From Myxococcales bacterium (lineage in GTDB: Bacteria > Myxococcota > Myxococcia > Myxococcales > Myxococcaceae), in contig JACPVI010000082.1 in NCBI GenBank assembly GCA_016191815.1, positions 1 through 64,000 on the forward strand: DNA of 64,000 nt, given 5' to 3'. The notes under the pieces are model-generated. The model did not search any database, was not told the origin of the DNA, and saw nothing but the letters and a program-made list of their open reading frames with translations. Below, one piece after another: positions 47,695 through 51,642 of the stretch. How positions within the stretch are numbered: the first letter of the stretch is position 1; every line of letters starts with the position of its first letter. The translations under genes and the position numbers were made by a program.

Positions 47695-49473
47695 CTACGC
47701 TGCCCGTTGCTCGCCAGCCTCGTCGAAGGGCGCGCCCAGCCACGCCTGATAGGCGGCCTTCTGCTCGTCGGTGGGTCGCTCTACCCGGGCGAGGTACACC
47801 GCGTCGGCTGGCTTCTGCCCGAGGCAAACGGGGAGCTCGATCAGCCGATCCCTCCGGAACGCCGTCACCCGCACCGTCTCGCCGGGCTTCCTCTCCTCGC
47901 AGCGAGACAAGAGCGCCGAGCCGTCCACCTTGTAGCCATCGAGCGCGACCACTTCGTCTTCGGCGTACAGCCCGGCTTCTTGCGCGGGGGAGCCGTCCAG
48001 CACCGTGGCGACGGTGGCGCTCCCGCGAGTGAGGATTCCCAGCCATCCGCGCGGGCGAATCTCGGCCGGCTTGAGCCTCGGCGGGCTACCGCCCTTGTCG
48101 TTGGCGGACTCGCGGACCCGGAGACGCGCCTCGAGTCCGACGTGAGCAAAGATGGAGCAGTCCAGCTCGGACGTGGAGCGCAGGGCTCGGTCGAAGAAAG
48201 GGGCCAGGTCCTCGCCGGTCACCTCCTCCGCCGCCGCCTCCACCCCATCCTCCGGCACCCCGCGACCGTCCCCGTAGCGCTGCCACAACAGCCGCATCAG
48301 ATCGTCGAGGCTCTTTTGGTTGGAGGTTGCCTTCCGGATGGTGAGGTCGAGCAGGAGCGCCACCACTTCCCCCTTGAGGTAGTAGGAGATGGCGCTGTTG
48401 GGCGTGTTCTCGTCGGGCCGGTAGTGCTTGATCCAGGCCACCATCGACGCCTCGGACAAGGACTGCGCCTTCCGGCCGGGGGTGGCTTGAAGCGCGCTCA
48501 TCGACTCGCCAAGCCGGGTGAGGTAGCGGCTCGGGCTCATCAGAGAAGCGCGGCGGACCAGGAGGTTGTCGTAGTACGAGGTGATTCCTTCGAAGGCCCA
48601 CAGGAGGCTGGTGTAGCTCTCCGTGGAGTAGTCCAGCGGCACCAGCGCCTTGGGGCGGATCCGCTTCACGTTCCAAAGGTGGAAGTACTCGTGTGCGGCG
48701 AGGGCGAGGAAGTCCTCCCAGCCCTTGGGGCTGGCGATGGTGGAGCGCGGGAAGAGCAGCGAGGTGGAGCAGTGGTGCTCGAGCCCGCCCCGGCCCTTGT
48801 CGGTGAAGTAGACCAAAAAGAGGTAGCGCCGCATCGGCAGCCCGCCGAAGAGGGCGGCCTCGGCCTCGCACACCTTGGAGAGGTCCGACGCCAGCCGGTC
48901 GCGATCCAGGGGTGGCTCGCCCCAGAGCACAACCTCGTGGGGGATGCCGCCGGCGTTGAAGCGAAGCGGAGAGTGCGGGCCAACCTCGAAGGGCGAGTCC
49001 ACCAACTCGTCGTAGTCCCCGGCGACGAGCTCCTGTCCCTGCCGCTCGAGCGCGCAGAAAGTCTGCCAGCCCTCCGGCGCATCGACGGTGACGCGGTGCT
49101 CGCGCCCGCGCAATGCCTCGGCGTACAGGAACAGGGTGGCGCCGTTGAAGTAGCCGTGGCTGCCGTCCAGGTGGCTGGTGCGGACGGTCAGCTCGTTGGC
49201 GTAGACCCTGTAGCGAAGCCGCACCGGCCGCTCTCCGGCGGCGACGCTGAAGCTGCGCTTGTCGGCGCGCGTGCAGGGCAGCGGCTCGCCGTCGGTGGTG
49301 GAGGCGGTCAATTCCTGAAGGTGCCGGGCATATTCCCTCACCAGGTAGCTCCCCGGCGTCCATACCGGCAGCGCGACGGTGAGGACGTCCGAGCAGGCCG
49401 GGAAAAGGGCCTCCACCTCGAAGAGGTGAGTGTGGGGCCGGCTCATCGAGACGCGATAGCGGACGGCGCTCAT
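47695..49473 (-). CDS. M61 family metallopeptidase with PDZ domain
   Basis: The 592-residue glycyl aminopeptidase-like enzyme has the zinc motif HEYFH (His261, Glu262, His265) in a stretch ending WNVKRIRP, and EGITSYYDNLL with the third ligand Glu. A C-terminal PDZ domain at about 480-560 has GWLGILTRG and DEVVALDGYKVDG. It is probably cytoplasmic or weakly exported; no signal peptide was found. A second ATG three codons upstream (49482) is possible. Confidence 0.92.
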   Translation of the reverse strand: MSAVRYRVSMSRPHTHLFEVEALFPACSDVLTVALPVWTPGSYLVREYARHLQELTASTTDGEPLPCTRADKRSFSVAAGERPVRLRYRVYANELTVRTSHLDGSHGYFNGATLFLYAEALRGREHRVTVDAPEGWQTFCALERQGQELVAGDYDELVDSPFEVGPHSPLRFNAGGIPHEVVLWGEPPLDRDRLASDLSKVCEAEAALFGGLPMRRYLFLVYFTDKGRGGLEHHCSTSLLFPRSTIASPKGWEDFLALAAHEYFHLWNVKRIRPKALVPLDYSTESYTSLLWAFEGITSYYDNLLVRRASLMSPSRYLTRLGESMSALQATPGRKAQSLSEASMVAWIKHYRPDENTPNSAISYYLKGEVVALLLDLTIRKATSNQKSLDDLMRLLWQRYGDGRGVPEDGVEAAAEEVTGEDLAPFFDRALRSTSELDCSIFAHVGLEARLRVRESANDKGGSPPRLKPAEIRPRGWLGILTRGSATVATVLDGSPAQEAGLYAEDEVVALDGYKVDGSALLSRCEERKPGETVRVTAFRRDRLIELPVCLGQKPADAVYLARVERPTDEQKAAYQAWLGAPFDEAGEQRAA

Positions 49474-49558
49474 GGCTCCCATCTATCGCACCGGCTTCGG
49501 GGCAGGGAAGCGCCGGCTGCGTCTCGCTTGGCCGGGCCCAAAGCGGCTTGCTCTACCC

Positions 49559-50401
49559 TCAGAAAGGCCGGGCGGAGGCCAGCCGGCCGTCGGCGACGGC
49601 TCGGGTGACATCCGCGCACGTCGCCTGCTCGGTCAGCCGAGCCCGGTCGAACCAGCTCCGCAACCCCTCGGGGTTCTGCTTGCTGACCGTCTCGCCCTTG
49701 AGCCACCCCACCGTTGAGTCGACAGTGTTCGACTCGTTGCGGCTCATTCGTACCAGGCCCTGCACCCGATCTTTCGACAGCACCACCCCATCCAGCCGGA
49801 AGAGGGTGCGTTCGCAGACGTAGACCTGACCGGCCACCGAGCCGCGCAGGAGAACCGTCACTCCGGGTTTCCCATCTTCGTCCTCGTCCCACAGCCAGCC
49901 GCTCTGCGGCTCTTGCTGGAAGTCGTCCTTGGTGGGGAGCGGCGTCGCTGCCGGGTCCGGAAGGTCGCGCACGCCCCACAGCTCGATCACCTCGTGGGAG
50001 GTGTACAGCCCCTTCTGGGGATCCGCTTCCGAGAGGTGCGAGAGGAGGGCAAGCCTCTGCACCGTCTCGGGCTGAACGATGCTCCGCCAGCCCGCGATCT
50101 CGAAGCTGTCCCTGGCACACCGCCGCACCTCCTCGAGGTAGGCTTTTCGCCCGGCGTCCCAAGAGGCACGCACCAACTCCTGAATGCGGAAGCCCCCTTC
50201 GCGCTCCCCGAGCAAAGGGACCGGCACCAGCGTGGCGAACTCCGCGACCTGGGCCCAACTACCCGCCAGCGAGCCCTCGGCCACCTGGATTCCCTGAAGG
50301 CCGGTTTCACTGTGCACCGCCCCCGGCCGCGCACCGCAGCTGGCGGCCAGCAGCCAGCTTGCGGCTACCGCGCCCAGTCGTTGAGGAATGGCGGATTCCA
50401 C
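49559..50401 (-). CDS. Lipoprotein of unknown function
   Basis: The start is GTG 50401, six bases after GGAGAA, giving 280 residues. The signal (VESAIPQRLGAVAASWLLAASC) has a lipobox at LLAASC. The remainder is mixed alpha/beta with two Cys pairs (ARRCARDSF is close to the family style of cytochrome-free periplasmic proteins) and DEDEDGKPGVTVLLRGSVAG, which may bind calcium. It overlaps the 3' end of a 42-codon gene on the same strand by 37 bases. Confidence 0.68.
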   Translation of the reverse strand: MESAIPQRLGAVAASWLLAASCGARPGAVHSETGLQGIQVAEGSLAGSWAQVAEFATLVPVPLLGEREGGFRIQELVRASWDAGRKAYLEEVRRCARDSFEIAGWRSIVQPETVQRLALLSHLSEADPQKGLYTSHEVIELWGVRDLPDPAATPLPTKDDFQQEPQSGWLWDEDEDGKPGVTVLLRGSVAGQVYVCERTLFRLDGVVLSKDRVQGLVRMSRNESNTVDSTVGWLKGETVSKQNPEGLRSWFDRARLTEQATCADVTRAVADGRLASARPF

Positions 50402-50493
50402 GTGCACTTCTCCAGGGTTTCGCGTCGCCGATCGAGCCGGTCGACGCGCCTGGCCCAGTCGGCGCGGTCGCGCATGGTCTTCCTCTTCGGCAT
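50365..50493 (-). CDS. 42-residue basic small protein, probably leaderless
   Basis: ATG 50493 opens MPKRKTMRDRADWARRVDRL followed by DRRRETLEKCTWNPPFLNDW and AR, ending in TAG. Third codon positions are almost all G or C, as in real genes here, while the overlapping lipoprotein start in another frame is less so. TACGCT ends six bases before the ATG. The length would be missed by most gene finders. Amphipathic charged helix plus a Trp-Asn-Pro-Pro segment suggest a folded or partner-binding peptide. Confidence 0.6.
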   Translation of the reverse strand: MPKRKTMRDRADWARRVDRLDRRRETLEKCTWNPPFLNDWAR

Positions 50494-50499
50494 GGCCGG

Positions 50500-50505
50500 A
50501 GCGTA
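50500..50505 (-). promoter_or_regulatory. -10-like hexamer TACGCT before the 42-residue gene
   Basis: On the minus strand TACGCT ends six bases before ATG 50493, like other leaderless starts in this window. Confidence 0.35.
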
Positions 50506-50583
50506 GCCACCGATCTGGGCGATCGCAATCGAACCCACTCGCCGGACCGCCCGCCATCTGGTCGCGAATTTGCTCGCTCTCGC

Positions 50584-51642
50584 TTACCTCCCGGGCTTCG
50601 TGGCAGGGAATGAGCCCCGGAAGAGTCGCCCCTTTCTCACCCGCACCGGCAGCGTCTCGCCTGGCCGGGCCTCGAGCGGCGGGCCGATGGCGCGGAGCAG
50701 CCGGTCCCCCAGAGGGAAGCGGTACTCGGCGCTGCTTCCGAGGAAGAGCCGGGCGGAGAGGGTGAGCGGGGTCCCTCCTTGCCCGACTCCGACCTCCAGA
50801 TCCTCCGGCCGCACCACCAGGGTGCCCGGCCCCTCGGCGCCGGAGAGCTCCGGAGGCAGCTCGAACTTGGCGCCCGAAGCGAAGAAGCAGCCTGCGCCCG
50901 ACTCGCCGCCTAAGAGGTTCGCCCCGCCCACGAAGCCGGCCACGAATGGAGTCGCCGGCTCGGAGTACAGCCGCTCCGGGGAGTCCACCTGCTCGAGGCG
51001 GCCGCTGTCCATCACCGCGATCCGGTCGGCCAGGGCCATCGCCTCGCCCTGATCGTGCGTCACGTACACCATGGTGGTGCCCAGTCGGGAGCGGAGAGCC
51101 GCGATCTCCGCACGCAGCTCCTCCTTGAGCGCGGCGTCCAGGTTGGAGAGGGGCTCGTCCAAGAGCAGCACCCTCGGCCGCCCGACCAAGGCCCGCGCCA
51201 GCGCCACCCTTTGGAGCTGCCCGCCCGAGAGCGCATGGGGCATCCTCTCGGCCAAGGCCTCCATCCGGACCCAGCCCAGGGCCTCGCGGACGCGCGCGGT
51301 CGCTTCGGCGCGCCTGAGGCCCATCAGCCTGAGGGGATACTCCACGTTCTTCGCGACGGTGCGGTGCGGCCACACCGCGTAGCTCTGGAACACCATCCCC
51401 AGCCCGCGCCGCTCGGGGGGCACGCGCGCGCCCGGCCCGTGCACCACTCTCCCGTCGATGGCGATGGTGCCGGAGTCGGGCACCTCGAGCCCGGCGATCA
51501 TCCTGAGCGTGGTGGTCTTCCCGCACCCCGAGGGCCCGAGCAGGGCGAGGAACTCCCCCTGGCCGATGCTCAGGCTGAGCCCCTGGACCACCCGGGTCGG
51601 GCCGTAGGACTTGTGGATGTCGGTCAGCTCGATGCCGGCCAA
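50584..51642 (-). CDS. ABC transporter ATPase, ferric-iron (FbpC) type
   Basis: The 352-residue ATPase has Walker A GPSGCGKTT, Q-loop, signature LSGGQLQRVALARAL, Walker B VLLLDEPLSNLD and H-loop VTHD, then a C-terminal TOBE domain (about 250-350). It energises the permease encoded next to it, with three bases between them. The Fe(III)/spermidine-thiamine class is indicated by TOBE and by the fused permease; the substrate is inferred. Confidence 0.9.
   Translation of the reverse strand: MAGIELTDIHKSYGPTRVVQGLSLSIGQGEFLALLGPSGCGKTTTLRMIAGLEVPDSGTIAIDGRVVHGPGARVPPERRGLGMVFQSYAVWPHRTVAKNVEYPLRLMGLRRAEATARVREALGWVRMEALAERMPHALSGGQLQRVALARALVGRPRVLLLDEPLSNLDAALKEELRAEIAALRSRLGTTMVYVTHDQGEAMALADRIAVMDSGRLEQVDSPERLYSEPATPFVAGFVGGANLLGGESGAGCFFASGAKFELPPELSGAEGPGTLVVRPEDLEVGVGQGGTPLTLSARLFLGSSAEYRFPLGDRLLRAIGPPLEARPGETLPVRVRKGRLFRGSFPATKPGR

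Follow-up and report, generated by a model that had tools for sequence, protein, structure and literature searches.

The window, the whole stretch of 64,000 nucleotides that was analysed, comes from a bacterium that is probably a myxobacterium and carries on its minus strand a short open frame that runs into the start of a putative lipoprotein gene. This gene and the frame before it lie between the genes for an ABC transporter ATPase and an M61 peptidase. The features of the locus, in the direction of transcription, are as follows.

50584-51642, minus strand: ABC transporter ATPase, the upstream neighbour (Pfam PF00005)
50523-50528, minus strand: -35-like TTGCGA, 17 nt before TACGCT; TTG is favoured there before the leaderless-type starts of the genome
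50500-50505, minus strand: -10-like TACGCT (TANNNT), 6 nt before ATG 50493; the TANNNT peak of the genome is at 6-9 nt
50365-50493, minus strand: 42-codon ORF, a predicted leaderless upstream ORF (ATG to TAG; codon scores, shuffles and frame plot below)
50365-50475, minus strand: the same ORF from an alternative 36-codon start, ATG 50475, with AGGA 5 nt upstream
50410-50413, minus strand: GGAG, within the 42-codon ORF and 8 nt before GTG 50401; the lipoprotein gene's Shine-Dalgarno-like site
49559-50401, minus strand: putative lipoprotein, 280 residues, without a family in Pfam or NCBIfam; the genome has a paralogue 50% identical to it
47695-49482, minus strand: M61 peptidase, the downstream neighbour (Pfam PF05299/PF17899)

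The initial annotation had proposed a hidden protein gene starting at ATG 50493, and the frame itself was confirmed: it is open for 42 codons and ends at its own TAG (50365-50367), with the translation MPKRKTMRDRADWARRVDRLDRRRETLEKCTWNPPFLNDWAR. It overlaps the lipoprotein frame, which starts at GTG 50401 on the same strand in another reading frame, and the overlap claimed earlier, 37 bases, is correct when counted from that GTG. The frame has two other possible starts, GTG 50538 upstream, which gives 57 residues, and ATG 50475 downstream, which gives 36. A Shine-Dalgarno-like AGGA stands before ATG 50475 at a spacing of 5 nt, and none stands before ATG 50493.

The 280-residue product of the downstream gene is a putative lipoprotein, as judged from its signal-like N-terminus and Cys. 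Two homologues, at the loci L045 and L046, are 37-38% identical to it. An alignment of four sequences of the family shows the motif DxDxDxxPGVT, and members were found at 24 loci which, by their record titles, belong mostly to Deltaproteobacteria/Myxococcales and to Bipolaricaulota/Acetothermia MAGs. The idea that the 42-codon frame and the lipoprotein form one gene, split by a sequencing indel, was rejected, since the short signal-like peptides at the beginning of the paralogue and the homologues agree with a start at GTG 50401. In the predicted fold of an RNA that begins with the AUG, this AUG stays free; GTG 50401 and two of the four GGAG bases are paired. The hairpin over the lipoprotein start is unexceptional, as 13 of 200 shuffled sequences were as stable, and the fold of positions 50365-50583 is not exceptional either (z -0.42).

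The composition of the 42-codon frame was compared with that of genes using a codon model written as our own script, which is not a tested gene finder and which also called the genes and their starts. It was trained on ORFs from the window and 20 further stretches of the genome (452 kb) and later on 60 stretches (1.25 Mb). GC at codon positions 1, 2 and 3 is 0.60, 0.55 and 0.88 in the frame and 0.68, 0.50 and 0.91 in called genes, so the GC-rich third positions noticed earlier are real. The frame has a codon log-ratio of 3.4 (3.38), or 2.9 with the larger training set; it is equalled or undercut by 8.8% of 42-codon gene windows, equalled or exceeded by 5.7% of 8555 open wrong-frame windows, and ranks 26th among 399 intergenic ORFs. 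When the first six codons are omitted, which gives the ATG 50475 start, it drops to 1.47. In a frame plot with 24-codon windows, the frame scores above zero at centres 50510-50435 and the other two minus-strand frames score -7 or lower; in that region one plus-strand frame scores as high as 1.5. Among 2000 dinucleotide shuffles of the gap, an ATG ORF of at least 42 codons appeared in 14%, such an ORF with a GC3 of at least 0.88 in none, and an ORF of at least 30 codons from any start with an equal or higher codon score in 0.15%.

Other measures gave a mixed picture. An ATG ORF of at least 36 codons with an equal or higher score is found in 8 of 88 gaps of 150-600 nt, the gap studied here included, some of these ORFs being of gene length. 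In the 30 codons outside the lipoprotein gene, GC3 is 0.90 and GC2 0.53 (difference 0.37, p 0.0017); over the whole frame the difference is 0.33, and 24 of 293 gap ATG ORFs reach this value. The dicodon score of the frame, -0.35, weighs slightly against coding: only 1.3% of 2858 gene windows score as low, and the value is reached by 9.8% of the 8555 wrong-frame windows and by 11.7% of 1655 gap windows. The peptide contains 10 Arg, compared with 8 at the 99th percentile of 42-residue windows of called genes. Given these mixed codon, dicodon, GC3-GC2 and Arg results, the codon signal is suggestive of coding, not decisive, and composition alone does not settle whether the frame codes.

New evidence comes from the sequence before ATG 50493, read against the genome's own starts. 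From 1.25 Mb of the genome we took the 648 called starts whose upstream side is free, the calls being those of our own script. TANNNT precedes them 18, 12, 11 and 18 times at 6, 7, 8 and 9 nt, compared with a background of about 3 per position 20-49 nt away, giving 59 occurrences at 6-9 nt where about 12 are expected. Relative to the TANNNT box, position -23 has T (0.37) and position -21 has G (0.59), and TTG is preferred 17 nt upstream of the box. This peak is the mark of leaderless genes as described for bacteria including delta-Proteobacteria in the 2011 account PMC3160421, which reports such TA-led genes in 8 of 33 delta-Proteobacteria genomes, at 15.8% of genes on average. The pattern suggests that the host genome uses leaderless starts, which look common. 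A relative (G022) has a weaker TANNNT peak, with 10 boxes at 6-9 nt before 202 starts and about 1.1 per position 20-49 nt away.

The initial annotation had noted TACGCT six bases before the start, and the box is indeed there, at 50505-50500. With TTGCGA, a spacer of 17, TACGCT, 6 nt and ATG, the candidate has the same layout as the leaderless-type starts of its genome. TACGCT occupies the place of the -10-like element of these starts, which makes ATG 50493 a plausible start of translation. Agreement of the two boxes with the sigma-70 consensus is poor (4 of 6 and 3 of 6), and a stricter sigma-70 promoter scan found no promoter at the upstream side of the frame.

We then asked how often this layout precedes an ATG in a gap. 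The set consisted of 1963 intergenic ATGs out of frame with called genes, and the expectation was taken from the other triplets. The box plus TTG precedes seven of these ATGs, the candidate among them, where 1.3 are expected (Fisher p 4e-4; odds ratio against other gap triplets 5.4). The box alone shows only mild enrichment (p 0.017), being present before 22 of the 1963 ATGs compared with 0.66% of all triplets, and before gap GTGs the box plus TTG shows no enrichment (1 of 3845). Five of the seven ATGs, the candidate included, head an ORF of at least 36 codons with a codon score of at least 2.9, the candidate's value; for comparison, 329 of 2512 gap ATGs head such ORFs, counting genes truncated at the end of a stretch. 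Of the seven ORFs the candidate is shortest; the other six have 65-118 codons, and two of them have negative codon scores. By count, roughly four in five of the gap ATGs with box plus TTG would be real starts. Being the shortest, the candidate is more likely than the others to belong to the 1.3 expected by chance, and for this reason we rate its own start lower, near one half. The same survey brought up four other uncalled ORFs with the same leaderless-type start, L158:16582-16830 (minus strand), L027:5692-5889 (plus), L042:14424-14780 (minus) and L169:5920-6186 (minus), which have 65-118 codons and gene-like codon scores of 6.3-15.7.

Relatives of the peptide were sought in overlapping sets of 60 related genomes, 145 genomes of the order, 147 of the class and 195 of the phylum, the own genome included, which is the only member of its genus in these sets. 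None of the 194 other phylum genomes yielded a convincing homologue. At E ≤ 0.01 the peptide matches 2 of the 195, its own genome and G046 (E 0.0057), and the sets of 60 and 147 genomes likewise gave no other match besides itself; the G046 match is an Ala/Pro/Ser-rich translation opposite a longer ORF and was judged to be chance. At E ≤ 0.1 it matches 12 of the 145 order genomes, its own included, somewhat more than the 5 of 145 matched by the reversed peptide used as control, and two of the order-level matches run through a stop. All matches at E ≤ 0.1 were treated as chance, with the location checked for G046 alone. The peptide had no match in the phage and plasmid collections, none in Pfam or NCBIfam, and best E values of 0.9 in PHROGs and 1.1 in PDB; the 57-residue frame from GTG 50538 had no match among viral contigs. 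Rfam gave nothing up to E 1 on 50250-50700, and none of the open-licence papers listed was, judging from title and start of abstract, on such ORFs in myxobacteria. A conserved protein made from the frame is thus unsupported, with no convincing homologue and no known family. What stands of the protein gene first proposed is the frame and the TACGCT box at the leaderless position; the protein gene itself is not borne out, the codon evidence is ambiguous and the peptide has an excess of Arg.

The surroundings bear on how this absence is to be read. An upstream permease gene is conserved in the family (E ≤ 1e-40 in 75 of the 145 order genomes, the own one included), and from 34 of the other 74 genomes we examined the stretch that follows it. 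The ATPase is present in 30 of the 34 stretches and is followed by the M61 peptidase in 15, with 8 to 1691 bases between that gene and the point where the ATPase alignment ends. The slot between the two genes, 49483-50583 in the window, is variable in the family. The translated content of the relatives' long ATPase-M61 spacers shows neither the lipoprotein nor the frame, and the lipoprotein appears nowhere in the 34 stretches below E 0.18. The best match of the peptide to these stretches (E 0.12) is 13 residues inside the M61 gene of L127; with looser settings it is an Arg-rich piece of L102 (E 0.043), on the strand opposite the ATPase gene and about 0.4 kb after it. The DNA of 50365-50583 (219 bases) matched the stretches in short pieces, the best listed being one of 33 bases (E 5e-5) that lies about 2 kb past the ATPase gene in L102. 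It therefore looks as if the lipoprotein and the frame belong to a lineage-specific insert of 1.1 kb. Comparison with related genomes, as a check on the proposed gene, gave no convincing relative, yet the insert is absent from all 15 syntenic relatives examined and the genomes include no genus-mate. Because the frame sits with the lipoprotein in such an insert, its absence elsewhere tells little about selection in this lineage, and the missing homologues are weak evidence against it.

We read the 42-codon frame as an upstream ORF, leaderless and overlapping, with which the lipoprotein mRNA begins, and put the probability of this reading, which relies on sequence features, at roughly 0.52. The main rival, which we hold possible at perhaps one chance in three, takes the boxes as the lipoprotein's own promoter, with a leader of about 92 nt that carries the GGAG, and the frame as an incidental product of GC-rich DNA that is not usefully translated. 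The lipoprotein gene does have its own GGAG 8 nt before its GTG, ATG frames of this length are common, as the 14% of shuffles and the 8 of 88 gaps attest, and there is no convincing conservation: no 42-codon frame was seen before the paralogue, L045 or L046 among the matches listed. Against an incidental frame, its ATG sits at the predicted transcript start, and box plus TTG is enriched before gap ATGs with the odds ratio of 5.4.

Two further explanations fare worse. A conventional small gene of 36 residues from ATG 50475 would be translated in the same frame by way of the AGGA, with no leaderless initiation; the AGGA lies 5 nt before this ATG and ATG 50493 has no counterpart, but the fall of the codon score to 1.47 once the first six codons are removed speaks against this start, as does the lack of a convincing homologue, and we find such a gene quite improbable. 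Still less credence goes to the frame as the relic of a decayed gene, for example a former extension of the ATPase gene (50584-51642), with which it is in register at 383 codons from start to start. Register arises by chance one time in three, however, and in 29 of 30 relatives the ATPase frame ends 0-9 residues past the aligned part (in L100 with a stop inside the aligned tail), L114 alone running 62 residues further. The ATPase of the window has 11 residues beyond residue 341, the point at which most alignments stop, and the frame resembles no protein in Pfam, NCBIfam, PHROGs or PDB.

If the 42-codon frame is a leaderless upstream ORF, RNA polymerase would use TTGCGA-17-TACGCT and, judging from the spacing, begin the transcript with the A of ATG 50493 or a base beside it. 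A 70S ribosome, needing no Shine-Dalgarno site, would then initiate at the 5' AUG, translate the 42 codons across the GGAG and GTG of the lipoprotein and stop 37 bases into that gene, with the lipoprotein itself started from its own GGAG. Ribosomes on the frame might open or disturb the predicted hairpin at the lipoprotein start, and coupling or interference with lipoprotein translation is possible. The leaderless ORF is probably translated and possibly affects translation of the lipoprotein; its peptide is probably an orphan product of recent origin. Since passing ribosomes would open or disturb the hairpin, any function of the frame is more likely to be exerted in cis than through the peptide. 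A stronger version, a de novo cis-regulatory small ORF specific to this lineage, whose leaderless initiation opens the hairpin and couples the output of the lipoprotein, seems to us unlikely.

Leaderless upstream ORFs are a known kind, described in mycobacteria. There, as reported in Shell et al. 2015 (PMC4633059), a 5' RTG is necessary and sufficient for leaderless initiation, and small upstream ORFs that overlap the next gene are a recognised class. Like the ORFs described in that account, the candidate falls within 5-50 residues, has its own stop and runs into the downstream gene in another frame; their start codon stands at the mRNA 5' end, a position that for the candidate is predicted from sequence. 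It differs from them in being known from sequence alone, in belonging to another phylum and in having no conserved orthologue that we could find. Most of the pervasively translated short ORFs of M. tuberculosis were judged unlikely to contribute to fitness in the report PMC9094748; the candidate resembles these in being short and in lying in a GC-rich genome, and its GC3-GC2 difference, a sign of selection in that report, is positive, whereas it comes from a single genome and from sequence only. With the TA-led genes of PMC3160421 it shares the position of the box, a TANNNT whose first T lies about 12 bp upstream, equivalent to 6 nt from box to start, but the genes of that account are annotated ones and the candidate is a hidden short ORF.

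Overall, the 42-codon frame is probably a real but unremarkable example of an overlapping short ORF with a leaderless start, and a function of its protein is unsupported. If it is translated, it would be a likely instance of this kind of ORF from beyond the mycobacteria, and a promoter-spacing test built from one genome's own starts can help to sort hidden short ORFs where conservation data are lacking.
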